Origin: Hemileia vastatrix
Lineage: Eukaryota > Basidiomycota > Pucciniomycetes > Pucciniales > Zaghouaniaceae
Direction of reading: 5' to 3'
Assembly: GCA_030280995.1 (NCBI GenBank)
Contig: JASXTE010000007.1
Location: forward strand, 12,835,501 to 12,899,500
DNA length: 64,000 nucleotides
Shown here: in pieces, positions 32,233 to 61,705 of the stretch
Layout of the letters: each line of letters opens with the position of its first letter
Numbering within the stretch: the first letter of the stretch is position 1
Notes under the pieces: model-generated
The model's database searches: none
Seen by the model: the letters and a program-made list of their open reading frames with translations, nothing else
Told to the model about the DNA's origin: nothing
Program-made: the position numbers and the translations under genes

Positions 32233-32955
32233 CCAGATTAGATGTCTTGGTGGACAGTGATAAATTAAAATGAGTGCATAGAGTTGCATATAATATTCCA
32301 GTTTAAGGTCATGGGGGACCCATCTTGTAAATCTTTTTTAAATTGACCAAATAACTCTTGAATTTCCAGTTTAATATCATAAACGACAAAGAATGAGTGA
32401 TTTTACAGTTTAGGGTCATAGTGGACCAACCATTTTAAACATAATCATCCATAAATCTTGAAAATTTCTTCTTGAATTCAGTTTTAAGTCTTGATGGACT
32501 AATATATCCCTTCTTTAATATTCAGTTTAAAGTCTTGATGAACTAACAGCTCCTTAATAACCTCTTGAATGAAAGTCTTGAAAAATTAGCCAGTTTAAAC
32601 TCTTGGAGGACTAACAGATCCCGTAAAGTAAAAAAAATCTTGAAAAATTGGCCAGTTTTAAGTCTTGGAGGACTAACAGAATATCAATATAGAATCTTTA
32701 ATGACAGTCTTGAACATTGGACAGTTTAACATTTTGGAGGACTAACAGCTCCAATATAAAATCTTAAATGAAAGTCTTGAAAAATTAGCCAGTTTAAAGT
32801 CTTGGAGGACTAACAGCTCCAAAATAACATCTTGAAGGAACGTCTTGAAAATTTAGCCAGTTTAAAGTCTTGGAGGAGTAACAGCTCCAATATAAAATCT
32901 TAAATGAAAGTCTTGAAAAATTAGCCAGTTTAAAGTCTTGGAGGACTAACAGTTA
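32233..32955. repeat. array of AGTTTA mini-hairpins in element H
   Basis: About twelve copies of CCAGTTTAA followed by a 4-bp stem and 6-nt loop, for example GGTC-ATAGTG-GACC (about 32,412-32,425) and AGTC-TTGGAG-GACT (several, from 32,650 on). From 32,590 the copies sit in 65-75-bp tandem units that also carry TGAAAGTCTTGAAAAATTAG. A few copies have one broken pair. Confidence 0.85.
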
Positions 32956-33279
32956 TTGTGAAATAGGATTTGGTAGGTATCAAAATCTGCTAGACCCTGT
33001 TTCCTACCTAAAATAAATGAATAACTAAAAAGAATGAAAACTGTAAAATCAAACTAATATTTATAATAATTATTTATTTAAGTAATTTATTTTATTATTT
33101 TATTATTTTTAATTTTATTTTTAATTTTCTTTTCTTTTCTTTTCTTATTTATTTATTTTATTTATTTTTTATTTTTTTAATGATTAAAATAATAAAAGGT
33201 TATAAAAGATTGTTATGAAATAAAATTTAAAATTTAATTTTAAAAAAAATGATAAACAAATTTGAAATATAAAATTTAA

Positions 33280-33790
33280 AAGATGCCCCCCGGCCAATTG
33301 ATGAGCTGTACCCTTGACATAATACCCACATCCAAGTGCAACTTGATGTGGTTACACCATTTTGAGAAATTGAAAATACAAAATTAATAAATGAAAGTTT
33401 AGAAAAACAAAATTTTATGATAATGATCACTGGGTGGGCTCCCTCCAATTTGAAAAAATGATTAGAGACCACCAGTGAGCATCACCCTTAACAATATTTT
33501 AAATATTATAAAAATTAAAATGAAAGAAAAACATAAAAAAAATAACAAAAACAATAATAAAAAAGATTCTTGAATCTGGAAGTGGGAGCATTGTCTCTTT
33601 GTTCATTCCAGTTTATAGTCTTAGCGGACTTCCTATAAATCAAAAACAAAGCCAGGATTCAACTAGAAACAGGGAAAAATAGGTAACGAACATTGTGGGG
33701 TAACTGTGTATAGAGCAGCCAGCCCATCAATCACCCCCAAACTTGCCAATATTTAATTCAGAAGGTTCCCCTGTGAACACTTCTACCAAT
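33280..33790. other. conserved structured block in element H tail
   Basis: Three hairpins match those of J nearly base for base while the DNA between is diverged. 33,326-33,351: CCACAT/ATGTGG plus CAAGT/ACTTG, triloop GCA. 33,427-33,478: TCACTGG/CCAGTGA plus TGG/CCA. 33,761-33,783: GAAG/CTTC plus TTC/GAA. It lies between the 3' end of pol and the accessory gene, so it could belong to the 3' UTR of the element RNA. Confidence 0.7.
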
Positions 33791-34038
33791 AAAAAAATTT
33801 ATCATTCCAAAATATATCTTCTCCATAATTTTTTGTCACTTTTAAGAGTTTTAAGAATTTTCAAACAAATGTCTTCATAATTGTTGTAAAATTTCATTAA
33901 CGGTTTTGTCTCCCATAGCATAGTAAAACAACAGTAATATTATTAATAAGAAAGTAGTTTATCCTCATTCCGGAGTTAAAATTTGACAAAATTTTATTTA
34001 ATCAATTATGTAGTTTATCCTTGTTTTGGAGTTTCCTT

Positions 34039-34578
34039 TTAAAATGATTGTAGAAATAGTTTACCCTCATTTCGGAGTTTCCTTTTGGAAATCCTGGTGC
34101 CCCTAGGATAGAACCATTTGACTTGATCAGCCGCTACCCTCTTCTTTATAACTACTCCATCCAATTCTTCCAAAACATATGAACCACCAGACACCTGTTC
34201 TCTGTATTTATAAGGTCCATTCCACCTATCTGTAAAAATCTTCCCCCACTGGCTTTCCAAACTCCTATTATACACCAAAACCATATCTCCAGTCTTTAAA
34301 GTTTTCCTGAGCCTGTGTGCTAATCTTTCATCCCAATACCTTACTGACTGATTTCTGATTTTAATCATTCTAGAATATGCCTTTTCTAAGTATTCTTCTT
34401 TCTTCTCCAGCTTCATCATTCTTGCACATAACAATTCTTCAGTAGTGTTGACAGTATCCCAATCTACTCCAAGATATGATTCAGCCTCTAAATCAACTGG
34501 TAAAACTTCTTTTTGTCCAAAAACTAGTTTGTAGGGTGAATATCCAGTTTTCCTTTTGGTAGTGATTCTGTCAGCAAA
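34039..34578 (-). pseudogene. integrase C-terminal part (element H)
   Basis: Frame 34,039-34,434 (LEKAYSRMIKIRNQSVRYWDERLAHRL, MVLVYNRSLESQWGK) matches the J integrase end. Upstream to 34,578 the frame continues (FGQKEVLPVDLEAES), with TAA at 34,579-34,581 replacing a leucine codon. AGTTTA hairpins overlap its 3' end (34,065-34,080). Confidence 0.8.
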
Positions 34579-34581
34579 TTA

Positions 34582-35358: not shown

Positions 35359-36698
35359 TGTAGACTGTTCTAAAGTACTAAGAAGTAGACACAATGCGAG
35401 ATGGGTTGGTTCTCCTTTTTAATTTATAAAAAGAAGTGCCTGCCACTCTTATTTTTAAAGACAGTGTAATAATGTGTAACACTAATATTTGACTAGAAAG
35501 TTTATAAGTTGAGATGAGTTAAAGATAAGGAAAAACAAGTATTACTATCTGGATATTTCTATTCTTAACAAGCGCTATTATCCACAGCTACTCCCTCTTG
35601 AAGCGCTCTCTTTGAATATGCCTTATTATAGTAATAAAATATCTCTAATAATAGTTAATCCCACTGAATCTATATATTCTCTCTATGTTGCACTCTTTTA
35701 CTATACTATATGAAAGACACACACAGACGCACAAACTCTAAAAAACTCAGAAAATACCTTTTAATACTCTCTCAAAAAATTAATCACAAAAAGATCTAAT
35801 ATCTTATACTGGGTATTATGACTATAGCTACATGTATATCTCTATATTGATTTTTCTATGATCTGCTTTTTAAAATGACAACTAATGCGATTTTTCTTAT
35901 TTTATTAACTAAATAGATAGATCAACCAGTCCTCTCTTTTTTTTTCTCTACCTAATAGTCCTCCTTTTATATTCTTCCAGCGCTCAAGACACAGTTCCCT
36001 AATGGATCTACAGCGCTGACTCTAGCGCCACATTAGTAAAACAATAACTAATTTATTAGTATGCTAATTACACTGCTTGAAACAACTACAGAGCCTAAAT
36101 CAGACCCTATAATTACTAACACTAGTATTAACTTGTTTCACTGATTCTCCACATATGCGCTTTTAACTATACCTTGTTTTGTTTCAGCGCTAGTTCCAGG
36201 TTTGACTTATCCTAATGCTGCGTCTAGTTGCCTTAACTCTTGGGTAGTTTTACGATTGAGTCCCCACTCTCTTTGCTTTAATACTAGGTTCGTAGTTCTG
36301 ACAGCTCGCTTAACTAGTTAGCCTTCTTCATTACTTGTCTCAGTAAGTTTCCTAACTGGCTGCGGTACAGCATACCATGCACTTGAGTTGTCCTTAATCC
36401 ATGACTTTCTTCTTAATGCGTAACACATACTTTTTGGAAAGCCCAAATCCATATTGTTTAGCGCTTAATAGTCCTAAGTTAATAATACACAATTCCCTAT
36501 TATGTGGCACATCTTGCTGCAAAATCCGAGCGCACAGACCCTTAATCTTTTTCTGTGCTTCCATTTCCTTTGTTCCTTGAAACACACAAATACATATTAT
36601 ATTTTAACATTTCCTGCTGCACTAACTCCCCTTTGTTCTTCCTGGACTACGCGCGCTGATTGGTCTAAAATCACGCTTCCTGCGAGGTGCGTACCACA
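35359..36698 (-). repeat. 3' LTR of element I
   Basis: TGTAGACTGTTC to GCGTACCACA, 1,340 bp, followed by the polypurine tract TCCTCCCTCTAC (plus) at 36,699-36,710. The palindrome AGCGCT occurs six times (35,571; 35,602; 35,979; 36,012; 36,186; 36,460), a marked excess in AT-rich DNA. Minus-strand TATAAAA at about 35,964-35,970. Confidence 0.92.
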
Positions 36699-36730
36699 TC
36701 CTCCCTCTACTCGCGACTGTCCCCAGGAGC

Positions 36731-36741
36731 CCATAAATACC
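36731..36741 (+). promoter_or_regulatory. possible TATA box of accessory gene I-A
   Basis: CCATAAATACC lies 100 nt upstream of the ATG at 36,841 and just outside the LTR, so the gene may have its own promoter or use an antisense promoter in the 3' LTR. Confidence 0.4.
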
Positions 36742-36840
36742 CTGTGTCTTGCAGCGTTTTCTTCCTCCATCTTCTATCCTTTTCCTTCGTCATCTTATTC
36801 TTCTCTTTTCTTATTATCTTTATTATTTTTATCTTTCACA

Positions 36841-37881
36841 ATGAATACCAGAAGAACCCCTCCTAAAGCTGAAAATACCACCAACATCGTGCACTCTATT
36901 CGACAGTTCGTGCGCACTCAGCCCCCTACTGCTTCCCCAACAACGCCCATAACCACACTGATGGGTGGGATGAGATGCACTCGTTGCATTGAAAATGGCA
37001 TAACTCCATGTCATTTTTCAAAAGCCCGCCGTGGCAATACTTTCTTCACTGTAAGTTCTCTTCATTCTTCCCATTTGTTACTAACCTTTTCATTTTTCTT
37101 TTATTCCTAGTCATGTGATTACTGCAAGAAACACAAGAAGAAATGCAGTTACGATGGGCCGCCCACTGTTGCGCACCTGGACCCAAATGCTTCTACAACA
37201 AATATGATGAGTCAAATGACCATCAAGCGCCCGGCGCCTGCTCCTGCTACCCCTCCTAACAACAAATGAGCCAAGGTTGGTTATCCCGAGCCTACTCCCA
37301 GTAGCTTTGCTTCTGTCCCTAAAGCTCTTTTATCGGAGGAAAGTACAGTAAGTTTATTTTTCTTACTTCTTCCCTTTCTAACACTAACATTCTCTCTTTC
37401 CTTTTTTTTTTTTATGTAGAATGCGCCAGGTACTCCTTACGCTGAAACGCCTCCGCCTCCTATCACTCCACTATTCCTTCCTTCCTTGGAAGAAGATTTC
37501 TTCTGGGATACGATGCCTACTCCCGATCCTACTCCTCGTTCGCCCACTCCTGACTGGACTGATATGCAGCCGGTCTTCAATACCGTCACTCCGGTTGAAT
37601 GGCCAACCAAGAACTTTCCGGTAGTAGATGACGATGAGCCCGCCATGGCTTAAAACTGGGAATTTTCAGAACAAATCGCCTGCGCTCCTTACAATGAGAC
37701 CATGCGTCGTATGAATAACATGATTGGGGCAGTCGAAACATTCCTCGAGGAGGTTCCGGTTTATACTCGCGCCGAGTATAATAAACGAAAACAACTAATA
37801 GCTGCCTTGCAACAAAACATGCAAGAAGCTGTTAACGATTGGGCTTTCTGCGTCCCAATCTTTGATGAAGCAGAATACTAA
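36841..37881 (+). pseudogene. accessory Cys6-cluster gene I-A (spliced)
   Basis: Exon 1 (36,841-37,050) encodes C46, C49 and C57. A 60-nt intron (GTAAGT, branch TTACTAAC, TTCCTAG; 37,051-37,110) splits the cluster. Exon 2 begins with C72, C75 and C82 in a basic loop (KKHKKK). A second intron of 72 nt (37,348-37,419, branch CACTAAC) leads to exon 3, with a helical C-terminal end. Two in-frame stops, TGA 37,267-37,269 and TAA 37,651-37,653, both explicable as C-to-T changes, make it a probable pseudogene. Cluster C-x2-C-x7-C-x14-C-x2-C-x6-C resembles Zn2Cys6. Role unknown. Confidence 0.75.
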
Positions 37882-38003: not shown

Positions 38004-39113
38004 TATGGTAAGGTAAACTCTTACAGTCGCCTTGCTGTAAGCAGAATCAGGAGGAGATATATGGATTTAGCTGAAAACCCCTTCCTTCCAATAAAAATAA
38101 CAAAGTAGGTGTTCTAAATCACTAAGCTAACCAATCTACTTAGATCTGATTGATAAAAATAATGAAACTCTAAAATAATTAACGCTTATTGAGATTTAAT
38201 GAAAGTGGCTGTTGATAAAGAAATACTGATAACAACAATTAAGGTGTACCAGTGAAAGATCTGAAAAGATTGACTTTTATGTTTTTATAATAATTTTAAT
38301 TTTTATGAGACAGCAATAATCAAGTCCCAGCGATGAAGACCTTTCTAAAGATACCCTGTATGAAGTGTTATTTAAACTGTTGAATTGTATTTCTAAGATG
38401 TTATGTAAAAAATAATAATGTTATAAGGGTATTACAAGTTATTTTAATTTGTTGAGTAATAAAAAATGAGACTGTAGTGGTTAAAGATTAAGCTGTATTA
38501 TCTGTTTCCCCCCTCAATTTCGAGTTTGAGAAGCGCTTAAGTATTCCTAGTCACGTGCCTAAGTTTTCCCCTCCAGAGCTCTTCCAGAGTCAATCCGGAG
38601 CCCGTATGGAGTCCGTACGGAGTCAAAACGGAGTCCGTCTAGACTTCCGGACTCAATTTAGAACCTCAAAACCATAATAAAAAATCTAGAAAAATTACAC
38701 ATAATAGAGCTACTTCCCCTTTACCTACCAAACTAATTTTCGTAGTCTGCGCAGCTCTAATTACCCCGTGAAAATTCATCAAAGTTAAGTAATTTTTGAA
38801 AACGTAAATATTTCTATAAAACTTTATTCATTTAAAAATATAAGAAAAATAGTAAAAATTCTGGGAAAATTTCCCAAGGTTCTTGAGTGACTTGACTTGA
38901 TACTTATAAATTTTTTAGACCATAAAAATAAGTTTTCTCCGCAAAATAAATTGTATTTGTGTAGGCATTTGCTCGTGAACAATTTCTTCATATTTTAAAC
39001 TCCAATAAATTAAATAAAACCCTTTTATATAAAAAAATAATAACGCCAATCTTGCACGCTGTAATAACTCCATTTACATATTTAGGTGCTGTACTAAACT
39101 TTAGGCTACCACA
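38004..39113 (-). repeat. 3' LTR of element J
   Basis: TATGGTAAGG to GGCTACCACA, 1,110 bp, with imperfect inverted ends TATGGTA/TACCACA. The polypurine tract TCCTCCCTCCAA (plus) follows at 39,114-39,125. At 38,596-38,637 it carries CGG-N3-CCG motifs (two full, others with one mutated half). Confidence 0.93.
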
Positions 39114-39125: not shown

Positions 39126-40347
39126 TCGAGAATGTCCCCATTCTTAAAACTTTGCATAAGTGGTTGAGAAATTCCAAAAGAATTATCTTTTCTAATAAAA
39201 TAATTTGATAAATTTGTTTTAGCTGGTCTTCTTTTAAATCTTTATAATAAAAACGTTGTTTCTTCTTCTCTGGCTTGATATAACATAAAATAAAATAAAA
39301 TAAATCTTGTGATGATTCCACTACAAGAGCAAGGTTTGAATCCCTTCAGACTCCCATATACCAGTCTTCCTTCTTGTCACAGCATTGAGAGAGTGGATCT
39401 TCCTATGAGCCGAATACTCCTGATTCCAATCTCATAGGGCCCCCCACTGAGCCGAATTCTATGATTCCAATCTCGCCATAAGGTCCTCCAAGCTTCACAC
39501 CAAAAAAAAAATGGCCTAACTATGAGGCACTAAAAAAAAATCATTCCCTAAAATCCAACTACCATCCTAACTTCTGATTCCTTCATCACAATTTTCAAAC
39601 TTTGCTATACAGCAAACCCATAAAATACTTTTGCCAGGCTTCCAATAATAATTTTAACTTTAGACCATGTTAAAGCGCCACAAATTTTACCTAATTAACC
39701 ATTATGCTTTCATTAGCATCATCACCACCTAAAATTTTAACCTCCTAAAGCTTATCAGCACCCAATTCCAGAAATAATTGAATAACCAGTTTAGAGTCTT
39801 AGTGGACAGTGATAAATTAAAAGATTGAATTGAGTTATCCAAACAAGATTGACATTCCAGTTTAAAGTCTTGGTGGACCAAACATATAATCGATTGCCAG
39901 TTTATGGTCTTGGTGGACCAAAGATCGTTTAGGTGCATAAATAACTTGATAAATTCCTAAGTAAAGCCTAGGCTTGACCAAAGATTGAATAAATTTGATA
40001 ATCCAGTTTAATGTCATAGTGGACCAAACATTTGATCGACAAGTAATCCAGTATAAGGTCATAGTGGACCAATGAATGTTGAATTATCCTGCAGATATTA
40101 ATTTTCCAGTTTAAAGTCATAGTGGACTAAACAATGAATGAACTACCAGTTTAAAGTCATGGTGGACCAAACATTTAATCGATAAGAAATCCAGTTTAAG
40201 GTCATGGTGGACCCAACACTTGATAATAGTCCAGTTTAAGGTCTTAGTGGACCTAACAACTTCTCTATCCTTGAACCCAGATCCTGCCACCAGCTTTCTT
40301 CATCCTAGTTTCAAGTTTTCTTCTTCAAAAAAATATCTCCTAACAAG
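39126..40347. other. noncoding stretch of J between LTR and accessory gene
   Basis: No gene seen. Holds the GCAAGGTTTGAATCCCTTCA block and diverged 34-bp repeat units shared with H (39,325-39,500), then nine AGTTTA mini-hairpins (39,785-40,254) with stems AGTC/GACT, GGTC/GACC and a few one-mismatch versions. Confidence 0.8.
39785..40254. repeat. array of AGTTTA mini-hairpins in element J
   Basis: Nine copies of CCAGTTTA plus stem-loop. Clear examples: AGTC-ATAGTG-GACT at 40,115-40,128 and GGTC-TTAGTG-GACC at 40,240-40,253. Loops follow the pattern (A/T)T-n-n-n-G. Confidence 0.9.
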
Positions 40348-41361
40348 ATGAAACCTTCTGACTTCATTGCTTCAGCTGATCAATCTTGCAAATACTGTGC
40401 CTTCACCCATAGGGAATGTATCTTCTCTTTTAACTGGCAAAAGAACACTTATAACAGGGCCTGTTTAGCCTGCTATGAGAAGAAAAGAAAATGTTCTGGC
40501 TTGAACTGTGGTTCTTTCCCCATCACTGCTACTAGCTTCGCCGCCTTCTGCAAACCTCTTCCTTCTTCTTCACCTTCTACTCCACCCCCTATTCCATCAA
40601 CCTCTAAAGATCCCATACCTTTTTCTCCATCAGCCTATTTAAACCTTTCTCCATCACCTAATCCTCTGGGTCCTTCTCTCCAATCTAGACTTGCTGCTAC
40701 TCCCCCAAGAACTCTTGCTGCTCCCAGGGTGATGCTTCAACCTTCTAACAATTCTTCTCCTTCTTCCAACATCTTGAAGCACAAAAGGTCCTATAATAGC
40801 CAGCAGTCTTCATCTTCTCTTGTATCATCCAAAAGGCCCAGAACATCTACTTCAAACACCAAATCCAACACCAGTCCTCCTCATCTATCAAAAATAAAAA
40901 ATCCTTTCCTAAACATAAAAAATCCCACTCCATTACCAAGTAAGCCATTTATCTATGATCATGATAGTGTTGACACAGGTTAGTTGTCTCTTTTTATTTT
41001 CTTAATCTTCAGGTTTTAATTTGCTGATATTTTAATTTGATAAGCGTCCACCGGTTCTCCAATTTCATATTCTGCTTATGAACTACCAGAACCTAATCCA
41101 AGCTTCCCTAGAGTTCCAATTCACCTAGTGTCTGAAAAGCTTTTTGCTAATTTTAATAACCTTATCGCTTATTTCCAACGATACCCGCCCTCTGATAGAT
41201 CAGAATCTTGGATGAGAGAGCAACTGTTAAGAGACCTTTTCAAAATAGCCAACTGGCTTCAACACTATCGTGACCGTGAAATAAGATTCGAATCCCAGGA
41301 AATCGATCAAGGTCCTTCTAAATTTTCTAATTTCGATTCTTCAAAAGATAACAACCCTTGA
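40348..41361 (+). CDS. accessory Cys6-cluster gene of element J (spliced)
   Basis: Exon 1 (40,348-40,978) encodes C14, C17, C24, C39, C42 and C49 (C-x2-C-x6-C-x14-C-x2-C-x6-C) with a basic last loop (YEKKRK), then a long Ser/Pro-rich linker with basic patches (SSKRPRTSTS). A 66-nt intron is likely (GTTAGT at 40,979, branch GCTGAT, acceptor AAG at 41,044; an alternative donor GTAAGC at 40,940 keeps frame). Exon 2 to the TGA at 41,359-41,361 gives a helical tail. About 315 residues, no stop. It is convergent with integrase. Zn2Cys6-like DNA binding is inference; it could instead bind RNA. Confidence 0.72.
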
Positions 41362-41616
41362 TGGTGTTCTTCCTGGTATGTAGCTTTCTTGAATAATGTT
41401 TGAAAAATAAAATATAAAAATCTAAACTACCTAAAACTAAAATACCTTTTATTATTATTATTTTTTATTTTTATTTTTTTTTTTTATATTATTTTTTTTT
41501 TTTTTTTTTTTTTTTTAGTTTTTTTTTTTAGTTTATTTTATTTTATTTTATTTTTTTTTATTTATTTTATTTTTTTAATTTTTATTTTATTTTTTTATTT
41601 TTATTTTAATTTTTTA

Positions 41617-41647
<31 letters not shown>

Positions 41648-42601
41648 TGATTTTTAAATTTAAAATAAAAGATTTTAGAAAAGATAGTTTTGAAATAAAA
41701 GTTAAAATTTAATTTTTAAAGAAAGATAAATGAGTGTGAAAAGAAAGATAAAAAAAAGGTAATAAAAAAAATTTTAAAATAAAATTTTAAAAGATGCCCC
41801 CCGGCCATTTGATGAGCCGTACCCTCGACATCATACCCACATCCAAGTGCAACTTGATGTGGTTACACAATTTTAAGAAATTGAAAAGAAAAGAAAAGAA
41901 AAGAAAGTTTTTAGAAGATAATTTTTATAATGATGATCACTGGGTGGGCTCCCTCCAATTTATAAAAATGATTAGAGACCACCAGTGAGCATCACCTTTA
42001 CAATAATTCATAATATAAATTAAAGAAAAGAAATCACAATCTACATAAAAAAATCAAAAACAAAATAAAATAAAAAGAATCTTGAATCCGGCGTTGAGAG
42101 CGGTGTCTCTTGATTCGTTCCAGTTTATAGTCTTAGTGGACTTCCTAAAATTGAAAGACAAAGCCAGGATTCAACTAGAAACAGGGAAAATTTTGGAAAC
42201 GAACATTATGGGGTAATTGTGTATAGAGCAGCCAGCCCATCAATTACCCCCACACTTGCCAATATTAAATTAAGAAGGTTCCCCTGTGAACACTTCTTCC
42301 AATAAATTTTAAAAATTTTCCAACACTATCTTCACCCATATTTTAAGAATTTTAAGTTTTTGAAAATTTCAAAGAAGGTCTTCTTGCATTTCGTTAAGTT
42401 TCATCACAGTTTCGTTGACCATATACAGTGTAACGATAGTAAAGTATTTTGATAAAAAAAAGATAGTTTATCCTCGTTGCGGAGGTATCCATAAAATTTC
42501 GTAGATATCATAGTTTATCCTCATTGCGGAGGAATCCATAAAGTTTCATTAATATCATAGTTTATCCTCATTGCGGAGGAATCCATAAAGTTTCATTAAT
42601 A
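41362..42601. other. noncoding stretch of J with structured block
   Basis: Contains a ~200-nt T-rich low-complexity tract (41,447-41,649), a structured block (41,790-42,303) and four CCTC/GAGG hairpins (from 42,463; the last runs into the integrase end). Hairpins in the block: 41,837-41,862 (CCACAT/ATGTGG, CAAGT/ACTTG), 41,932-41,993 (GATG/CATC, TCACTGG/CCAGTGA, TGG/CCA) and 42,274-42,296. The block is conserved in H (33,280-33,790). Confidence 0.75.
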
Positions 42602-43873
42602 TCATAGTTTATCCTCATTGCGGAGGAATACTTCGGCACTCCTGGTGCCTCTAGGATAGAACCGTTTCACTTGATCGGCCGCTACCCTCTTCTTTAATAC
42701 TACTCCATCCAACTCTTCTAGCACATATGAACCGCCGGAAACTTGCTCCTTGATTTTATACGGTCCATTCCACCTATCTGTGAACATCTTTCCCCACTGA
42801 CTTTCCAAACTCCTATTATACACCAGGACCATATCTCCTGGGTTCAAAGGTTTCCTTAATCGATGTGCCAATCGCTCATCCCAATATCTGACTGATTGAT
42901 TTCGGATCTTCATCATCCGCGAATATGCCTTTTCTAAATATTCTTCTTTCTTTTCTAGCTGCATCATTCTTGCACACAATAATTCTTCAGTAGTTTTGAC
43001 CGTGTCCCAGTCAACTCCAAGATATGATTCAGCTTCTAAATCAACTGGTAAAACTGCTTTCTGTCCAAAAACAAGTTCATAAGGTGAAAATCCGGTCGTC
43101 CTTTTGGCAGTGATTCGATCAGCAAATAAAACTAAAGGTAAATAGTGCCTCCACTTTTCGGCACTTGTCCCACACATTTTAACTAAAGCATCCTTGATAA
43201 CTTGATGCCCTCTTTCAACCATGCTTTCAGCTTCAGGATAATATGGGGTTGCTACCCTAACCTTTGATCCAACTTTCAATACGGCCTCTTTAAACTCTGT
43301 CCCAAATTCAGGACCTCCATCTACCGTTACCAACTTCATCACCCCATACCTATATACCCAATTATTCAAAAAAAATTCTGCCACATTTTTGGCAGTTAAA
43401 TTAATAAGAGGCGCTGCCTCTACCCAACCAGATAAATCATCTCTGGCCACAATTAAATATTTATACCTTCCCTCTTTTATATGAACGGCATCTAAACTTA
43501 CTCTTCCAAAGAGCGTATATTCACCGGTCGCGCGTCCAGGTTCTTTTGGCCTTAAATAACTTCGTCTTTGACATTCTTCGCATGACTGAACCCACTGTTT
43601 AACAGCCATCTTCATGCCAGGCCACCAAAATCGATCAGAAATTCTTCTAAATGTTTCTCCAACGCCTCTATGCCCGAGATCTTCATGCAGTGATTTCAAA
43701 ACTAATTCTTGCCCCTTCTGTTGAGTTATAACTACTTGAGGATTTGGATACCTCCTCCTCATTAAACGTCGACCAGATAGGTAAAACGTAGATGACTTCC
43801 TCTTGATAGCCACCCATTCATCGTCTTCACAATCTTCTGGCCTCTCTAAAGTCAACAAATATTTGACTAACAA
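42602..43873 (-). CDS. integrase (element J)
   Basis: 423-codon open frame. Zinc finger H63, H68, C98, C101 (HEDLGH...CEECQ). Catalytic D128 (VSLDAVHI), D185 (VTVDGGPEF) and probably E220 (MVERGHQ). C-terminal basic region with VRYWDERLAHRLRKP and a GPY-like DRWNGPYKIKEQ. It lacks the chromodomain seen in C, F and G, so it is a different Ty3/gypsy branch. It follows RNase H with a frameshift at a run of ten T (minus strand, 43,871-43,880), where the two frames overlap. The residues needed for strand transfer are all present. Confidence 0.9.
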   Translation of the reverse strand: MLVKYLLTLERPEDCEDDEWVAIKRKSSTFYLSGRRLMRRRYPNPQVVITQQKGQELVLKSLHEDLGHRGVGETFRRISDRFWWPGMKMAVKQWVQSCEECQRRSYLRPKEPGRATGEYTLFGRVSLDAVHIKEGRYKYLIVARDDLSGWVEAAPLINLTAKNVAEFFLNNWVYRYGVMKLVTVDGGPEFGTEFKEAVLKVGSKVRVATPYYPEAESMVERGHQVIKDALVKMCGTSAEKWRHYLPLVLFADRITAKRTTGFSPYELVFGQKAVLPVDLEAESYLGVDWDTVKTTEELLCARMMQLEKKEEYLEKAYSRMMKIRNQSVRYWDERLAHRLRKPLNPGDMVLVYNRSLESQWGKMFTDRWNGPYKIKEQVSGGSYVLEELDGVVLKKRVAADQVKRFYPRGTRSAEVFLRNEDKL

Positions 43874-44658
43874 AAAAAAAAACCAGTCTGACCCCAGACT
43901 TCATCTTGAAAATCGATTAATATAACATCAATAGGGACTTCTCTATCACCAATATCACCTGCACATGAATGAGCCAATAATCGTTGACCCCTAAATAAAT
44001 CTTTAATCGAGCTATGTCGACGTTTTTCTTCTGAACCTTTGGATCCTTTGAAAACCGTATTTGAAAATACCTCTTTCTCTTTATCCACCCTTTTATTTAA
44101 ATTCTCTAATTCTCCAACATATACACCATTCCTTAATTTACTACTATCCCACACTACCAATCCATTTTCCTCTACATACACCACATCTTCTTCTCCCTCC
44201 TCTCTGCCGAATTTATCTACACCTTTTCCAACACCTTTATTAACATAAAAACTATTTTCCAGTTTATCCTCTTGGTGGAGGTCATCATCATCATTATCTA
44301 AACACAATAGTCCTGCCAGTTTAACCTCATGGGGGAGGTATGGAAAGTCTTCAGCTCCTTTAGTGCTGGCTTTGATAATAGGTATATCTTCATCGAACTC
44401 TTCTGAGTCTGAATCTTCTTCAGTGGGTGGTCTCCTTGATAAACCATCTGGAATAGTAAAAGTCTTGCCAGGCTTATGAACTAAATCAAATGAAAAATGT
44501 TGAATAAAAGCTAGCCATCTAGTCATGGGTGCGTTTGGTAAACTTGGGGAATTAATCATCTGGATTAACGATTTCGCATCCACTTGCAACTCAAAATGTT
44601 GCCCCCACAAAATATGCTGAAGTTTCTTCAGTATTTTCGCCACACCACATAATTCCAA
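43867..44658 (-). CDS. RNase H C-terminal part and linker (element J)
   Basis: Continues RT in the same frame after one TAA (44,677-44,679, serine codon in I). It contains LELCGVAKILKKLQ, FELQVDAKSLIQM and KPGKTFTIPDGLSRRP of RNase H, then an acidic linker (EEDSDSEEFDED). Two AGTTTA hairpins fall inside the linker and are translated as PHEVKL and HQEDKL (44,258-44,345). The linker continues toward integrase and ends GFFFC at the T-run. Confidence 0.82.
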   Translation of the reverse strand: MELCGVAKILKKLQHILWGQHFELQVDAKSLIQMINSPSLPNAPMTRWLAFIQHFSFDLVHKPGKTFTIPDGLSRRPPTEEDSDSEEFDEDIPIIKASTKGAEDFPYLPHEVKLAGLLCLDNDDDDLHQEDKLENSFYVNKGVGKGVDKFGREEGEEDVVYVEENGLVVWDSSKLRNGVYVGELENLNKRVDKEKEVFSNTVFKGSKGSEEKRRHSSIKDLFRGQRLLAHSCAGDIGDREVPIDVILIDFQDEVWGQTGFFFC

Positions 44659-47723: not shown

Positions 47724-49538
47724 TTAAGGTCCAACCGAGCCATCTTCACCCCCCATTATAACATCTTCACTTTCTATAACCCTAACTCCGTCACCAACTT
47801 CTTGCACTAATCCTGATCCATCGCTAGTCCTTCTTACACCCTCCATTGGGATGGGACCGCTAAAACTTGGTCTGGGTAGAGACGCCAACGGTACGTCCTC
47901 CTCAGAATCCAAATCATCCTCTGGCATAGGCTCACCATTTAAATCAAACTTGCCATAACTAGGGGGCCCCATATCAGCAATCCCCTTCTGCATTTTATAT
48001 AATTCGTCCTTAGAGTAAGGGTTCAATTTGTTGGCGGCAGTTTGAGCACTAGAAATCTTGTCCTTAGAGTAAGGGTTCACTTTGTTATTGGCCTTGCCAG
48101 GATTAGCCCTCAATTGGCTCTGAATGCTACTTTTCGCCTTAGTAGCGGCTGCTCTTCTAGCAGCATTAACATCGTATTCGCCAGCCATACAGCTACCCTC
48201 CACCTGGGCAACCGTCGCCAGCTCTAAACCACCAAAAGAAGTAGAAAATGTGGCTTTACTGACCTCTTTCTCCTTGCCCTTGTCAGCTTTACCACCATTA
48301 CCATTACCATTTTTGCCACTCTTGGAATTAACATCTTCATCCGTCACCTCTTCAAATCTGGCTCTCCTTTCAGCCGTTAAACTTCTTCTGACCAAATCAG
48401 AAGGAGACTGTCCATCACTGGGCTTGATGAACGAACCATCAGGAAATTTATAAACTTTACCATCAAATAAAACTCGCCCAGCATCCATATCCTTATCAAG
48501 AGCAAAACAAACTGTTGCTCTGTGACCCCTCCTATTACAATAGGAGCACACCTTTGGCTCATCATAGCCACCTCTATAATTACTACCACCATTCCCACCA
48601 TTTCTCCCATTGCCTGGGAAGCGGTTACCGTTGTTATTGCCATTATAATTTCGACGTTCATAACCTCTAGACTGATAAGAAGTCGACGTCGACGAAGAAG
48701 CAATTGGGGCCTTATTGGCCTTCTGGGTTTCTTGAACAAATATTTTTAATTGTTTAGTTAAATCGGCCAGGTGATCGACCATCTTATTATCCACATTACC
48801 CTCAACTTTAGCAGCAGGTAATCCCATTTGAGCCTTCTTGGCCTCCTGGGCTTTGACCATAATATCGTTATTTTCGGCCAAAACTTCGCTAACCTTGCTA
48901 ACATATTGAGTGCATGACTCTTGATATTTGTCCAACGCCAATAACTTTAGATGGGCTTGAATGTTGTCCTTGATAACCTCCAGAGCCGGCAGTTTCTGCT
49001 CACCATTAGGCAGTTCCTTCATCAAATCTTTTCTTGAAAGATCCTTCAAGACGTCCATACGAATATCCCTGCTGCATGCTGACCAAAACAAATCTTTTGC
49101 TTGGTTCTCATGCACTAACTTGTCCACCAGTATGAGATATTCCACCACTTCATCAAACTGAACACAGAGCTTTTTGAAGTCAGCCATAGAAGAAACACCA
49201 CCTTTTGCTTGCCAGTCTCCAACAATTTTATTGAGGTCCATCATAGTAAACCTAACACCCCATCTATCAACCATAGCTTTAGAAAGCTTAACCCAATCCT
49301 TGTCCTTGAATGCCTGCATAGCAATAACCTCTTTTTCCACCTCCCTATCGGCAATAAAAAATCTAACTTGCTTCACCATATCCACATGGGAAGCACCATC
49401 AACAGCAGCAGCAGCTTCATACCTGCTAATGAACCATTTAACCTCCTCCCCATCAAACTTTGGGCCATCCCAAGAAACAATTCTAACTGAGGGAGTAAGA
49501 GGGTTAGAAGATCCAGAAGCAACAGCAGAAGAAGACAT
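47724..49538 (-). CDS. gag (element J)
   Basis: 604-codon open frame from the ATG at 49,536-49,538, directly behind the primer site. N-terminal capsid-like domain (VKWFISRYEAAAAVDGASH, MVDRWGVRFTMMDLNK), a helical middle, a Gly/Asn/Arg-rich basic stretch (RRNYNGNNNGNRFPGNG) and a canonical C-x2-C-x4-H-x4-C zinc knuckle at about residues 331-344 (CSYCNRRGHRATVC). The C-terminal acidic and Ser-rich end closes at TAA 47,724, where H has glutamine. It would form the particle and bind element RNA. Confidence 0.92.
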   Translation of the reverse strand: MSSSAVASGSSNPLTPSVRIVSWDGPKFDGEEVKWFISRYEAAAAVDGASHVDMVKQVRFFIADREVEKEVIAMQAFKDKDWVKLSKAMVDRWGVRFTMMDLNKIVGDWQAKGGVSSMADFKKLCVQFDEVVEYLILVDKLVHENQAKDLFWSACSRDIRMDVLKDLSRKDLMKELPNGEQKLPALEVIKDNIQAHLKLLALDKYQESCTQYVSKVSEVLAENNDIMVKAQEAKKAQMGLPAAKVEGNVDNKMVDHLADLTKQLKIFVQETQKANKAPIASSSTSTSYQSRGYERRNYNGNNNGNRFPGNGRNGGNGGSNYRGGYDEPKVCSYCNRRGHRATVCFALDKDMDAGRVLFDGKVYKFPDGSFIKPSDGQSPSDLVRRSLTAERRARFEEVTDEDVNSKSGKNGNGNGGKADKGKEKEVSKATFSTSFGGLELATVAQVEGSCMAGEYDVNAARRAAATKAKSSIQSQLRANPGKANNKVNPYSKDKISSAQTAANKLNPYSKDELYKMQKGIADMGPPSYGKFDLNGEPMPEDDLDSEEDVPLASLPRPSFSGPIPMEGVRRTSDGSGLVQEVGDGVRVIESEDVIMGGEDGSVGP

Positions 49539-49694
49539 CCCAATAAGTAATGAAAAGCGTTAACAATCGATAAAATAACAAGCCTCTTGCAGGCCAATAA
49601 CAAAAATCCAATTAGAGTTCCAGAAAATAAGCCTCTTGCAGGCTAAGAACGTTCTTGATCCAAGTAAGTCTTTAAAGAAAGCTAGAGAAATCGA

Positions 49695-49714: not shown

Positions 49715-50849
49715 TATGGTAAGGTAAACTCTTACAGTCGCCTTGCTGTAAGCAGAATCCGGAGGAGATATATGGATTTAGCTGAAAACCCTGTCCTTCC
49801 AATAAAAATAACAAAGTAGGTGTTCTAAATCACTAAGCTAACCAATCTACTTAGATCTGATTGATAAAAATAATGAAACTCTAAAATAATTAACGCTTAT
49901 TGAGATTTAATGAAAGTGGCTGTTGATAAAGAAATACTGATAACAACAATTAAGGTGTACCAGTGAAAGATCTGAAAAGATTGACTTTCATGTTTTTATA
50001 ATAATTTTAATTTTTATGAGACAGCAATAATCAAGTCCCAGCGATGAAGACCTTTCTAAAGATACCCTGTATGAAGTGTTATTTAAACTGTTGAATTGTA
50101 TTTCTAAGATGTTATGTAAAAAATAATAATGTTATAAGGGTATTACAAGTTATTTTAATTTGTTGAGTAATAAAAAATGAGACTGTAGTGGTTAAAGATT
50201 AAGCTGTATTATCTGTTTCCCCCCTCAATTTCGAGTTTGAGAAGCGCTTAAGTATTCCTAGTCACGTGTCTAAGTTTTCCCCTCCAGAGCTCTTCCAGAG
50301 TCAATCCGGAGCCCGTACGGAGTCCGTACGGAGTCAAAGCGGAGTCCGTACGGAGTCGAAACGGAGTCCGTCCAGACTTCCGGACTCAATTTAGAACCTT
50401 AAAACCATAATAAAAAATCTAGAAAAATTACACATAATAGAGCTACTTCCCCTTTACCTACCAAACTAATTTTCGTAGTCTGCGCAGCTCTAATTACCCC
50501 GTGAAAATTCATCAAAGTTAAGTAATTTTTGAAAACGTAAATATTTCTATAAAAATTTAAAATTCATTTAAAAATATAAGAAAAATAGTAAAAATTCTGG
50601 GAAAATTTCCCAAGGTTCTTGAGTGACTTGACTTGATACTTATAAATTTTTTAGACCATAAAAATAAGTTTTCTCCGCAAAATAAATTGTATTTGTGTAG
50701 GCATTTGCTCGTGACCAATTTCTTCATATTTTAAACTCCAATAAATTAAATAAAACCCTTTTATATAAAAAAATAATAACGCCAATCTTGCACGCCGTAA
50801 TAACTCCATTTACATATTTAGGTGCTGTACTAAACTTTAGGCTACCACA
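49715..50849 (-). repeat. 5' LTR of element J
   Basis: 1,135 bp, partner of 38,004-39,113. Longer mainly because the CGG-N3-CCG region (50,307-50,370) has four full copies instead of two. Flanked outside by CCGT (50,850-50,853). It should drive the gag-pol transcript. Confidence 0.93.
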
Positions 50850-52163: not shown

Positions 52164-52660
52164 AGCGCCTAACTTTGCTGCCTCTACTTTCTTTAAAAAA
52201 CTGTAAACCCTAAAAAATTCATAAATAAACCTCTATATCATAAAACTTTACCGCCTTTCCTGCGATACAGCAATATACCATGTAAAATAAGAATTGAACT
52301 GTAGAGCGCCCCATCTATAAATCGCTATTCCACTCCTGGTTAGTTAACCCATTGGCTAAATTCCCAGCGTCTTTTGCGTTTAGATGGTACACATCTCCTT
52401 TAATCCAATTACCTATTTGGTCATGTCCCCTCTAACGATAAAAATATATAAGATTTCAATTTCCTCTACGCCCTCATCTAAGCGCTTATGCCAGTTTCCT
52501 GTTCAGCTATAGTCCACCTAACTTCCAGTTAGCGCCCTCTATCCGTCACAACTGTGTCAAAGCCTCCTGTGAGTCCTCTTAGAAAAACAAAACTTAACAT
52601 AACTTGTTAGTTTAACCTCTTCCCGGAGGTATTATTCTGGTAGTTTTTCCTCATTCTGGA
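52164..52660. other. noncoding stretch of I between I-B and pol
   Basis: No gene seen. Two AGTTTA-type hairpins at its right end: CCTC-TTCCCG-GAGG (about 52,616-52,629) and CCTC-ATTCTG-GAGG (about 52,650-52,663), the second touching the decayed integrase end. Confidence 0.7.
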
Positions 52661-53857
52661 GGTTATCTTGTATCACTGGAACACCCCGTGGGTAGAATCT
52701 TTTGATCTGGTCTGCGGCCACACGCCGCTTCAACTCAGTACCATCTAATTCCTCCAGTTATCTGCTTTCTTATCCTATAAGGACCATTCCATCTGTCAGA
52801 AAACATCTTCCCCCATTGGCTTTCTAAACTTCTATTATAAACCGAAACCAAATCTCCTGGGTTAAATGGCTTTTTTAACCTATGCGCTAAGCGCTCATCC
52901 CAATATTTAACTGACTTGTCCCGGATCTGCATCATTCTTTCATACGCTTTCTCCACAAACTCGTCTTTTCTTTCAATTTGCGCTACCCTTGCTAGAATTA
53001 AATCTTCCGTTGAGTGCACTTGATCCCAATCACATCCTAGGAAAGATCCAGCCTCCAGATCAATAGGTAATATCGCCCTTTGACCAAACATAAGTTCGAA
53101 TGGCAAAAACCCTGTTGTCCTTTTAACTTAAATCCTGTCCGCAAACAAAACTAATGGCAAGTAGTTCTTCCACTTCTCCCCATTATTTCCACATAATTTA
53201 ACTAGTGCATCTTTTATAACTTGATGCCCTATTTCTACCATTCCCTCTGCTTCAGGATAATATGGTGTTGCAACTCGTAACTTTGCACCAATACCTTTTA
53301 CTACTTCTTGGAATTCTCCCAAAAATTCAGCGCCACCATCTACAGTTACCATCTTCATTACCCCATACCTATAAATCCATTCTTTCTTCAAAAACTCAGC
53401 CACATTACTTGCCTTGAGGTTTATCAACAGCGCTGCTTCAACCCATCCTGATAGATCATCCCTGGCTACTACCAAGTATTTAAAGCTTTCTTCTTTTATA
53501 TGGACTGCATCTAAACTGACCCTACCAAAAACAGTATCCTCGCCTGTCGCTCTCCCTTTTTCTTTTGGCTTTCTGTATCTTCTGCGCTGGCATTCAGGAC
53601 AAGATTTAACCCAATTTCTTACTTCATTTTTCATGTTGGGCCACCAGAATCTTTCCCTAACTCTGCAATGAGTCTCATCTTGACCCCTATGTCCTAAATT
53701 CTCGTGTAACTCCCTGAGTATCTTCTCCTTCCCTTCCCTAGTTTGAATAACTAACTGAGGAGAGGAAGCTTGATTCTTCCATAACTTCCCATCTTTAATA
53801 AAATAGCCTTTAGCGCGCTTTTTAATATTGCACCAAACCTTTTTATCGCAGAAATCC
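52661..53857 (-). pseudogene. integrase (element I)
   Basis: Same branch as the J integrase: HENLGH...CPECQRR zinc finger, VSLDAVHI, VTVDGGAEF and MVEIGHQ. Stops at 53,125-53,127 and 53,860-53,862 (TGA, between RNase H and integrase). The C-terminal part 52,735-53,106 ends in a deletion frameshift (QITGGIRWY). Triad residues are kept. Confidence 0.85.
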
Positions 53858-53859
53858 GG

Positions 53860-54858
53860 TCAACTATTACCTTCCAAATATAACTTTAACAACTCTACTC
53901 CCTCATCTGTAGATGCGTTGTCTTCTAAATACTCCCCCTCTTCGAGTTGAGTACTACTATCCTGACTTCCCTTTGAAGTATCTTCATCATCTGACTCTTC
54001 CACTTCCTCCCCTTGCACACTCCTTGTCACTACATTAGCTTCAGTGTTCCCTAAATCCAGTTGCAGTTCAACGTTGCTACAAACATCCTTTACATTGTCA
54101 GCATTTAATTTTATGTCTTTTCGGACATTCCACTTTACTAGTTTATTGTCATCATGGACAATACTACCTACTAGTTTATGGTCTTGGCAGACATTCTTGC
54201 CTGATAGTTTATCGTCATTGCGGACGTTCTTGCCAAATTTTGTATAACAATAATCTATCCTGTTTACCCATCTCTTATCTTCTTCAAATTCTTCCACTTC
54301 TGAGTCTTCTTCACACAATGGTCTTCTCAACAGCGCATCTGGCATAGTGAAATATTTCCCTGGCTTATGGACTAAATAAAAAGAAAACAAATTAATCTGC
54401 GCTACCCACCTTGTCATGGGCGCATCTGGTAAACTCAGGCTACTAATCATTTGCACCAACAATAGCGCATCAACCTGCTGCTCGAAATGCTTCCCCCAAA
54501 GCATCCATTGTAGCTTTTTAAGAATCTTCGCTACTCCACATAACTCCAGCTTAGACTGGGAGTACCTAGACTCCACTTTGGTAAAAGTCTTGGACTCGTA
54601 AAGGACAGGTCTATCATTACCTTCTTTGTCCTCCTGCATCAAAACTACGCCCACCACGGACACACTAGAATCCACCGCTAGAGTAATTTTTCCAGCGCCT
54701 GGTCCATACTCCAATTTCTTCAAAAGAATATCTTTTCCTACAATCCTCTTTAATAACTCAAATGACTCTTCACATTCCTCCGTCCAATCCCATACAACAT
54801 CCTTTCTTGTTAAGTGCCGTAAAGGCAAAGACAACAAAGCAAAATCTCGAATAAACAT
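53860..54858 (-). pseudogene. RNase H and linker (element I)
   Basis: The 332-codon frame starts with the RT thumb (MFIRDFALLSLPLRHLTRKD), then RNase H (LAVDSSVSVVGVVLMQED, LELCGVAKILKKLQ, LLRRPLCEEDSEVEE), then an acidic linker with four translated mini-hairpins (54,105-54,230: KDIKL, DDNKL, QDHKL, DDKL), and an acidic end. One TGA separates it from integrase. Confidence 0.82.
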
Positions 54859-54939
54859 TCTTACATATGTACAAATGCCTAAAAACCCTCTAAATTCCTT
54901 AGTATTTCTTGGTCTTGGCCATGTAAGTACCTTATTCCT

Positions 54940-56993: not shown

Positions 56994-56996
56994 TCT

Positions 56997-58825: not shown

Positions 58826-59071
58826 TCCTGAAATACTAAATCAAAGCAAAGATCACAAAGAAAAAACACACGCTTGGTAATTAAACCTGACTGTTTTCAC
58901 GATACAGCCCTACGCTATCCTCTGATAATGGCTATTGATCCACTTGTTGTAGACCCTAGAACTCTTCCGCTGAAGCGCCGGCTTGATTACGTCCTCTTGA
59001 CGAAACCCTAAAAAACAAAACAATCTAATCAAAAACACTAGTTACAAGTATGCCACTGTTGGGACACCAAT
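58826..59071 (-). other. leader and primer-binding site of element I
   Basis: Short leader with no gene. The putative primer site TGGTGTCCCAACAGTGG (minus, 59,053-59,069) is two bases from the LTR. It resembles the tRNA-Lys type of J around CCCAAC but with changes at its 5' end, so the tRNA is not assigned. Confidence 0.6.
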
Positions 59072-60407
59072 TGTAGACTGTTCTAAAGTACTAAGCAGTA
59101 GACACAATGCGAGATGTGTTGGTTCTCCTTTTTAATTTATAAAAAGAAGTGCCTGCCACTCTTATTTTTAAAGACAGTGTAATAATGTGTAACACTAATA
59201 TTTGACTAGAAAGTTTATAAGTTGAGATGAGTTAAAGATAAGTAAAAACAAGTATTACTATCTGGATATTTCTATTCTTAACAAGTGCTATTATCCACAG
59301 CTACTCCCTCTTGAAGCGCTCTCTTTGAATATGCCTTATTATAGTAATAAAATATCTCTCATAATAGTTAATCCCACTGAATCTATATATTCTCTCTATG
59401 TTGCGCTCTTTTACTATACTATATGAAATACACACACAGACGCACAAACTCTAAAAAACTCAGAAAATACCTTTTAATACTCTCTCAAACAATTAATCAC
59501 AAAAAGATCTAATATCTTATACTGGGTATTATGACTATAGCTACACGTATATCTCTATATTGATTTTTCTATGATCTGCTTTTTAAAATGACAACTAATG
59601 CGATTTTTCTTATTTTATTAAATAGATAGATCGACCAGTCCTCTCTTTTTTTGTCCCTACCTAATATTCCTCCTTTTATATTCTTCCAGCGCTCAAGACA
59701 CAGTTCCCTAATGGATCTCCAGCGCTGACTCTAGCGCCACATTAGTAAAACAATAACTAATTTATTAGTATGCTACTTACACTGCTTGAAACAACTACAG
59801 CGCCTAAATCAGACCCTATAATTACTAACACTAGTATTAACTTGTTTCACTGATTCTCCACATATGCGCTTTTAACTATACCTTGTTTTGTTTCAGCGCT
59901 AGTTCCAGGTTTGACTTATCCTAACGCTGCGTCTAGTTGCCTTAACTCTTGGGTAGTTTTACGATTGAGTCCCCACTCTCTTTGCTTTAATACTAGGTTC
60001 GTAGTTCTGACAGCTCGCTTAACTAGTTAGCCTTCTTCATTACTTGTCTCAGTAAGTTTCCTAACTGGCTGCGGTACAGCATACCATGCACTTGAGTTGT
60101 CCTTAATCCATGACTTTCTTCTTAATGCGTAACACATACTTTTTGGAAAGCCCAAATCCATATTGTTTAGCGCTTAATAGTCCTAAGTTAATAATACACA
60201 ATTCCCTATTATGTGGCACATCTTGCTGCAAAATCCGAGCGCACAGACCCTTAATCTTTTTCTGTGCTTCCATTTCCTTTGTTCCTTGAAACACACAAAT
60301 AAATATTATATTTTAACATTTCCTGCTGCACTAACTCCCCTTTGTTCTTCCTGGACTACGCGCGCTGATTGGTCTAAAATCACGCTTCCTGCGAGGCGCG
60401 TACCACA
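59072..60407 (-). repeat. 5' LTR of element I
   Basis: TGTAGACTG to GTACCACA, 1,336 bp, partner of 35,359-36,698. Flanked by GCGG (60,408-60,411). TATAAAA on the minus strand at 59,674-59,680 in AATATAAAAGGAGG. The AGCGCT palindromes are kept except the first. Confidence 0.93.
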
Positions 60408-61017
60408 GCGGTGTATCAAAAGTAGTAAGAGCCCTAAAGTCTGGATGCAACTCTCTCTCATCATATCCCCCCATAATATCTCCTAAACCATAACACACTC
60501 TCCCAGAAAAAGCTTCCACAAACTCCTCATCACTAGGTGGTATACCAGCATCCTTTATTGTAACCCTATTAAGTTCCCTGAGATCATGAACTACTCTAAG
60601 TTTTCCATTCGGTTTCTTGATACAGAATACCAGACTAGAATAACTTGATGATGATTGCTCATACAGTCCAGTGCAAATCCATTCTCTGACAACTTTGATA
60701 TAAGCTTCTTTTAATGCAGCCTGAATTGGGATTGGTTTTTTCTGCCAAAGTTCATGACATACCACAGGAATCTTGTAAGGCTCCCCATAGGAATGCTTCA
60801 ACACACCCCTCTCCTCTTCTACCAAAGCAATGGCCTTCTCTCCCTTGACCATCACATCTAACAACAACTTCTTCTCTTCTCCAGACAACCAACCATCAGG
60901 TCCAAAATTAAGAACACCTAATCTATCAAAAGTGATTCTTGATGTTTCAGAAAATTCAGGCGGATTCTTCATCAAGGGACATTCATAAGGATCTCTTGAT
61001 AGCCTTGGTATTCTCAA
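60408..61017 (-). pseudogene. RT N-terminal part (element H)
   Basis: Pre-RT and fingers (RIPRLSRDPYECPLMKNPP, YEQSSSSYSSLVFCIKKPNG) up to LTTFDTPL, where the LTR of I cuts in. The open frame then runs into LTR sequence to 60,331, which is an artefact. Upstream is a stop before MRIPRL. The continuation is at about 35,350. Confidence 0.87.
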
Positions 61018-61705
61018 AGGTGGATTTAATTCAGCGGGTAGTGGCTCATTAATTGGTCGGATTTTATTTGCTACCTTCTTCTATTTTTCTGCTTCTGATC
61101 TACATAAGCTTGAGGTAAAATATTAATTTTTGTATTGCCATTAAAAATTTCATCAAAGAAATTCCCTTCTTCGACAGAATCAGAATAAGAATAATCAGAA
61201 AAATATTTTATTTAATTTTTAAATTTAACCTTCTTCACTTTTCCCTTGTCTAATTTTTCAACAAATTTTTCAACACCTTTAATTCCCTTATCCATCATAA
61301 AATCACCTGTAAAATAAGTTGGCAGTTTATCCTCTTGCTGGAGGACCGGAATCAAATTATCACAAAAATTATTTTTTTGTGTTTTAATTATACTAAGATT
61401 TTTTATAGAATTTTGATGAAATAATTGCAGTTTACCCTCTTTCTGGAGGTCAGAAAATAAACCATTCCAATTTTTATTCAACATAATATTTCCCATCTTC
61501 CCTCTTGTTTCATTCTTGAACGTGATCAAAAATCTTGACAGAGAAGTGAGACAAACCAAAAATTTGAAAACATAATAACAATTCAATGTATTATTAAAAG
61601 AAAATAATTGAGAATCCACTTGAATTATCTCCAAGTGAGCTGACCTATTTCAATTCGGGATCTCTTCCTGGGGAGAGATTGCAAAATTAGGGTGATCAGC
61701 CCCAT
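61018..61705 (-). pseudogene. protease-RT linker (element H)
   Basis: The frame 61,212-61,634 parallels the J linker (EIIQVDSQLFSFNNTL, DLQKEGKLQ, LQQEDKL). It carries two AGTTTA hairpins (about 61,324 and 61,431) against six in J. A TGA at about 61,650 and a stop at 61,212 break it. Confidence 0.75.

Follow-up and report, generated by a model that had tools for sequence, protein, structure and literature searches.

A stretch of 64,000 nucleotides of the Hemileia vastatrix genome (GenBank assembly GCA_030280995.1, contig JASXTE010000007.1, positions 12,835,501 to 12,899,500 of the forward strand; hereafter the window, numbered from 1) carries three Ty3/Gypsy retrotransposons, termed I, J and HK, in which the hexamer AGTTTA followed by a small hairpin recurs many times with differing stems. 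The questions raised by this locus are whether these hairpins form a real family, whether their fold has been selected, which molecule folds, and for what. An earlier note on this DNA had reported more than 40 copies sharing AGTTTA, a spacer of 1-3 nt, a 4-bp stem and a 6-nt loop. The dispersed family in the window was confirmed and is more extensive than that note stated: the unit on the plus strand is AGTTTA-n-[NSTC]-[WTNNNG]-[GASN], 21 nt in length, and 45 copies are present.

The hairpin unit and covariation of its stem

Exact AGTTTA occurs 59 times on the plus strand, and at 28 of these sites a 4-bp Watson-Crick stem enclosing a 6-nt loop begins after a spacer of 1 nt; on the minus strand 1 of 32 sites qualifies. 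Other gap and loop settings on the plus strand (gaps 0-6, loops 3-12) gave at most three sites each, the exception being a gap of 0 with a loop of 8 (11 sites), where the AGTTTA hairpin is read as having five pairs. Such an additional pair was rejected, since its positions pair in only 12 of 40 distinct copies. When all hexamers followed by a gap, a 4-bp stem and a loop were scanned (filter: 4 or more sites per setting, with 3 or more different stems), the AGTTTA combination ranked first (27 sites), the next ranks were shifted readings of the AGTTTA site, and unrelated combinations reached at most five sites in either half or strand. In an anchored scan, 13 anchor positions were scored and stem positions 1 and 2 were left free; 43 sites scored 12 or 13 of 13, all on the plus strand of 31-64 kb, whereas about 0.1 strong sites were expected from 20 first-order Markov resamplings, and at this score no site was found on the opposite strand or in 1-31 kb. 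Three sites in the same half and strand scored 11 of 13, of which those at 34012 and 54107 were retained (both lie inside hairpin clusters), making the total of 45. The third, at 45042, was excluded, its second pair being broken and its position outside any cluster.

The spacer is 1 nt in all 45 copies, so that the range of 1-3 nt did not hold; AGTTTA stood as the hexamer of the family, although the copy at 54107 carries AATTTT in its place. A covariance model found the 45 copies from which it was built and one weak match on the other strand. Two sites stand outside the counts. One, at 32237-32260 (AGATTAGATGTC..GACA), is a degenerate copy whose spacer may be 2 nt long and which was matched by eye to the copy at 39788; the other, at 37635-37659, resembles the hairpin weakly (E 0.071), has the opposite orientation and lies in the part of J that holds its antisense genes. 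Identity between clusters was 0.84-1.00 at AGTTTA, stem TC and GA, and loop T and G; it was low elsewhere (flanks 0.22-0.52, free base 0.35, loop positions 3-5 0.31-0.37) and also at stem positions 1-2 taken singly (0.22-0.43). The unit was therefore taken as 21 nt with sharp edges, because identity is high inside and drops to background just outside.

The six stems quoted in the earlier note were all found, each at its position, and all four Watson-Crick types occur at the outer pair, as had been observed there; the second pair shows G-C and C-G. Of the 160 stem cells in 40 distinct copies, 149 are paired and 35 are changed on both sides, and neither value was reached in any of 500 shuffles. 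When the partner was slid out of register, pairing fell from 93% to at most 49%. Covariation was evaluated against a phylogenetic null with our own R-scape-like script (not R-scape), in which changes reconstructed by the Fitch method on a FastTree tree were replaced at random columns (1000 runs). For the 45 copies, the G statistic gave p=0.001 for pair 1 and p=0.021 for pair 2 with the tested columns excluded from the tree, and p=0.001 and p=0.015, respectively, with the all-column tree. For 142 distinct 41-mers from the window, the C2 loci and the sampled stretches (see below), p was 0.001 for both pairs on both statistics. The latter set was obtained from 146 copies scoring at least 12 (thus leaving out the two retained copies of 11 of 13), of which four were lost as identical 41-mers or for short context. 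Note that the C2 set consists of 30 overlapping loci merged by coordinate, taken from the first matches listed on one contig and hence no random sample; the orientation result given below covers the window and the sampled stretches. Thus, the two outer stem pairs covary above the phylogenetic null, and selection for a folded form, as proposed in the earlier note, is supported.

The statement that stems change yet stay paired held for the covarying outer pairs and not for every copy: four Watson-Crick pairs are present in 31 of the 43 copies scoring at least 12 (35 when G-U pairs of the element-sense strand are counted), and in 103 of the 146-copy set (118 with sense G-U). By element, four Watson-Crick pairs were found in 18/22 copies of I, 5/6 of J and 9/17 of HK, the pol of HK being the most decayed-looking of the three, with stops present (by reading). 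With only three elements, these proportions are consistent with upkeep of the stem in active elements and drift afterwards.

Carrier elements and places of the copies

As written on the plus strand, all copies are antisense to the three elements, which lie on the minus strand; I carries 22, HK 17 and J 6. Self-comparison suggests that the three elements are nested, HK containing J and J containing I (about 30-64 kb). The earlier note had named the elements H, I and J; H appears to be one half of an element, HK (about 30-35.36 kb plus 60.4-64 kb or beyond), whose two halves are split by J. The reverse transcriptase (RT), RNaseH and integrase domains of the carriers match Pfam, and the assignment to Ty3/Gypsy fits the long terminal repeats (LTRs), RT, RNaseH and integrase detected by tools and the primer-binding site (PBS), purine tract and gag recognised by reading. 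The best named pol relatives are from rust fungi (Puccinia striiformis, Austropuccinia psidii and P. coronata). The hairpin copies and the main parts of I and J are as follows (UTR, untranslated region; ORF, open reading frame).

32300..32947, minus strand: 3' UTR cluster of HK, 11 copies, several at a 68-nt tandem step
33610..33630, minus strand: one copy in the 3' region of HK, homologue of the copy at 42122
33956..34078, minus strand: pol 3' end of HK, 3 hairpins, outer pair broken in 3/3
35359..36698, minus strand: 3' LTR of J, 98.3% identical to 59072-60407, without hairpins
38004..39113, minus strand: 3' LTR of I, ends approximate (from BLAST), without hairpins
39788..40253, minus strand: 3' UTR cluster of I, 9 hairpins, spacing mostly 40-45 nt
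42122..42142, minus strand: one copy in the 3' region of I
42465..42626, minus strand: pol 3' end of I, 4 hairpins at 47-nt spacing, the copy at 42606 encoding the C-terminal LRNEDKL
42602..43873, minus strand: integrase ORF of I
44261..44338, minus strand: RNaseH-integrase linker of I, 2 hairpins, peptides LHQEDKL and LPHEVKL
44677..46950, minus strand: RT/RNaseH ORF of I
46307..46672, minus strand: protease-RT linker of I, 6 hairpins, spacing 45 and 105 nt, in frame (LQQE[VG]KL)
47724..49559, minus strand: gag-like ORF of I, CCHC-like knuckle CSYCNRRGHRATVC by eye, without hairpins
49715..50849, minus strand: 5' LTR of I, without hairpins, followed by PBS-like TTGGCGCCCAACGTGGGG on the minus strand
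52609..52662, minus strand: pol 3' end of J, 2 hairpins, spacing 33 nt
54107..54226, minus strand: RNaseH-integrase linker of J, 4 hairpins at a 33-nt step
59072..60407, minus strand: 5' LTR of J, without hairpins
61324..61449, minus strand: protease-RT linker of HK, 2 hairpins, spacing 105 nt

The same places recur between elements: the protease-RT linker (I, HK), the RNaseH-integrase linker (I, J), the pol 3' end (I, HK, J) and the 3' UTR (I, HK). By coordinates, no copy of the window lies in gag, an LTR or an enzyme domain of the three elements. The protease-RT linker holds 2 copies in HK versus 6 in I, at steps of 45, 105 and 150 nt, and comparison by eye indicates local tandem gains there. 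The stems in the RNaseH-integrase linker of J are TGTC/GACA (two copies), GGTC/GACA (outer pair broken) and CGTC/GACG. Among the protein homologues, two of the three that carry the matching peptide, P0053 and P0061 (the latter from Puccinia coronata), share LRNE[SR]KL in the protease-RT linker, a hairpin-encodable peptide and a likeness that may be real.

The two LTRs of I are 96.8% identical over 1135 columns; by reading, a PBS-like sequence lies beside the 5' LTR, a purine-rich tract lies ahead of the 3' LTR, and ACGG may be a 4-nt duplication. The pol of I is spread over several ORFs, and the only Pfam match of its gag-like ORF was zf-C2H2_10 (E 0.05). The first 31 kb (1-30000) belong to a different Gypsy clade (A), in inverted and direct copies, and are without hairpins of the AGTTTA kind. 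A T-rich low-complexity tract in the 3' region is common to HK (33072-33249) and I (41456-41724). Cys-rich ORFs run antisense, on the plus strand, in the 3' regions of J (two; 36841-37050 plus 37111-37269, and 51226-51894) and I (one; 40348-40983); the second exon of the first of these (J; exon limits by reading) has a weak match to Zn2Cys6 (Zn_clus; E 0.0062, below the Pfam cut-off).

Abundance and restriction to one clade

The whole assembly (747,610,610 bases, 791 contigs) was searched for exact matches to a 20-position pattern, AGTTTANNSTCWTNNNGGAS, which does not constrain stem position 1. The two strands gave 62,423 and 62,243 matches, 124,666 in total, versus 12 (5 + 7) for the reversed-pattern control. 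With G..C at stem position 2 there were 73,159 matches (36,683 + 36,476; control, 0 + 2); the other 51,507 comprise C..G plus G..G and C..C, unsplit.

Twenty 10-kb stretches were then sampled at 0.6-Mb steps along contig C42. Six of them carry 52 copies, on one strand only within each stretch, and an integrase of the I/J clade is encoded in exactly those six (best match 67-86% identity); the remaining 14, in which there are A-clade elements, an I-type gag next to a pol of the A clade (L031) or nothing that matches at E 1e-8, carry none. By arithmetic, the chance of such a 6/14 split is 1 in 38,760. Orientation relative to pol is constant in 45/45 window copies and 52/52 sampled copies (the latter by reading). 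Within the sample, therefore, the hairpin is restricted to one Ty3/Gypsy clade. The comparison with shuffled and non-element DNA proposed in the earlier note thus favoured the family, the motif being absent from the resampled and non-clade DNA examined. No relatives were found by scans of viral contigs (integrase; RT alignment) or of genome contigs (same RT alignment), so that the DNA comparison covers a single species.

Folded strand and possible function

The strand that folds was approached through imperfect pairs, because A-C cells on the plus strand are G-U pairs if the element-sense strand folds. Sense G-U exceeded sense A-C (15 versus 4 cells, p=0.019), and in the genome AGTC/GACC (sense G-U) was counted 5,485 times versus 282 for GGTC/GACT (sense A-C), the copies not being independent. 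Among the matches listed, the wobble form is borne by lineages that multiplied and the mismatch copies are scattered. Because sense G-U exceeds sense A-C, genomic (sense) RNA is likely to be the folded molecule, with the form 5'-NSUC-CNNNAW-GASN-n-UAAACU-3'; the earlier note had left RNA and single-stranded DNA side by side.

With moderate confidence, we favour the explanation that the genomic RNA of each element carries the unit many times over, as a hairpin acting in cis. That the hairpins are many, short and weak and have a constant 3' tail suggests binding by a protein with avidity: the protein would read the conserved positions (the UC/GA pairs, C and A of the loop, and the 3' tail UAAACU), the remaining stem letters would only have to pair, and many weak sites would gain avidity through repetition. 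Tandem duplication alters copy number (steps of 33, 45, 47, 68, 105 and 150 nt). As the partner, the element's own Gag/nucleocapsid, acting in packaging or particle assembly, is proposed tentatively, a choice made solely by analogy with the dispersed packaging signals of RNA viruses; the next choice is an RNA-binding protein of the host that would act in export or localisation. Taken as a whole, a clade-specific hairpin code on genomic RNA, with as many as about twenty sites in one element, placed in linkers and 3' UTR and serving as a multivalent packaging or assembly signal, is possible, if somewhat unlikely in all its parts.

Several observations count against this reading or the results under it. 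Among the five shuffle measures, the number of pairs with double change (2) and the number of further pair types (7) were no higher than in shuffles, because only two pairs vary, and relatedness of the copies can inflate the remaining measures. The paired fraction of pair 2 with the all-column tree was not above the phylogenetic null (p=0.139), and pairs 3 and 4 give no covariation evidence, because they are nearly invariant and were used as anchors. The stems are short; with 40-nt flanks, predicted pairing averaged 0.39 on the sense strand (17/45 copies above 0.5) and 0.34 on the opposite strand (15/45), so that context folding does not separate the strands. Counted as independent origins on the tree, sense G-U versus A-C was only 12 versus 4 (p=0.077). 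Nearly all of the 100 listed AGTC/GACC copies share a few recurrent loops, mostly ATGGTG or TTGGTG, and thus represent few amplified lineages among the matches listed. Moreover, J is without copies in its protease-RT linker and 3' UTR, and the hairpin peptide is not convincingly enriched in the protein homologues (76 + 2; 3 found versus 0.86 expected by shuffling).

Systems of comparable kind were sought among known RNAs and in the literature. Rfam 15 covariance models gave no match at E<=1 across the 64 kb, and no repeated-hairpin family in LTR elements was found by title and beginning of abstract, subscription papers lying outside that search. The main text of a study of transposable elements in rust genomes is without the terms 'hairpin', 'motif', 'stem-loop' and 'antisense' (PMC12210899). 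Thus, cis-acting RNA hairpins are already known, and the literature so searched yielded no LTR retrotransposon with a dispersed covarying family of such size, in agreement with the earlier note, which knew of no such family. The nearest idea is that of the dispersed packaging signals of RNA viruses, in which likewise many stem-loops on one RNA share a small motif and are otherwise variable; these belong to virus genomes and their contacts with coat protein have been studied (PMC6281560), whereas the rust hairpin belongs to an LTR retrotransposon, has a strict 4-bp/6-nt geometry with a 3' hexamer, forms tandem arrays and has a ligand that is only proposed. Yeast Ty3, likewise of Ty3/Gypsy, has cis-acting hairpins in its genomic RNA, for example one bearing the dimerisation site, but the sections of that paper at hand describe single sites and mention no repeated hairpin family (PMC11381356).

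Among the other explanations, that the folded strand is the complement of genomic RNA (first-strand cDNA or an antisense transcript, possibly tied to the antisense Cys-rich genes) appears unlikely. On that strand the loops are G-richer (by reading), in I the 3' cluster has an antisense ORF after it, and the stems pair about equally on both strands; however, the wobble asymmetry favours the sense strand, weakly when counted as origins, and the 3' cluster of HK, unlike that of I, has no following antisense ORF (by reading). We give rather less credence to passive copying, in which tandem duplication and element amplification would have spread one sequence that has no function as a fold. Most window copies do lie in tandem arrays, and copy numbers track element amplification, but the covariation exceeds a null that keeps relatedness, and identity is at background immediately outside the 21 nt.

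The earlier note had also considered a self-spreading mobile hairpin. Fungal mitochondrial double-hairpin elements are small, mitochondrial hairpins in many copies that are regarded as mobile, REP sequences are prokaryotic and mobilised by a transposase, and Rickettsia palindromic elements are longer hairpins that lie within protein-coding frames and are dispersed among host genes. The rust hairpin differs from the first in being nuclear, single, of one orientation and bound to one element clade, and from the last in that its coding copies, as far as observed, sit in linkers of element pol genes. REP sequences likewise combine a constant short tag with a small hairpin at high copy number (GTAG/CGTC-tagged palindromes; PMC3733652), but the rust hairpin resides inside retrotransposons of a eukaryote. 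A mobile hairpin of the mitochondrial or REP type residing in retrotransposons would account for the very high copy number, the sharp edges, the in-frame copies within pol and the REP-like constant hexamer next to the hairpin. It is nevertheless disfavoured, and we regard it as improbable: the copies keep a single orientation relative to pol in both the window and the sample, are absent from the 14 clade-free stretches and from 1-31 kb, and occupy homologous places in diverged elements, and tandem duplication accounts for local gains.

It is no more probable that the unit acts as duplex DNA bound by a protein dimer, such as a Zn2Cys6 factor resembling the products of the antisense ORFs. The dyad symmetry and the weak Zn_clus match in J (E 0.0062, below the cut-off) would suit such a site, which is however expected to fix letters rather than to vary them in matched pairs and predicts no wobble asymmetry; moreover, the constant AGTTTA is present on just one side. 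Finally, that the encoded peptide of the pol linkers, mostly [VL]xx[ED]xKL, is what is conserved is very improbable: 19 of the 22 copies in open frames of at least 120 codons use the same frame, with V paired with D and L with E, but the stem itself dictates this rule, frame 0 is closed because TAAACT contains TAA, three coding copies of L033 use a different frame, and 28 of 43 window copies lie outside any such open frame.

Dispersed packaging signals are usually hard to detect, the motif being faint and the genomes few. Here a strict motif, a fixed orientation and >120,000 matches in one assembly make the kept letters, the free letters and the pairing rule directly readable, and the hairpin offers a convenient means of recognising one element clade in a large rust genome. 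If the favoured cis-acting RNA hairpin is indeed a packaging or assembly signal, it would constitute a dispersed-packaging-signal system in an LTR retrotransposon, and the >120,000 copies in one genome would amount to a naturally occurring mutational scan of an RNA-protein interface. A protein partner, if found, would reveal the way in which an LTR retrotransposon labels its own RNA and would explain selection inside the otherwise free linkers of pol.

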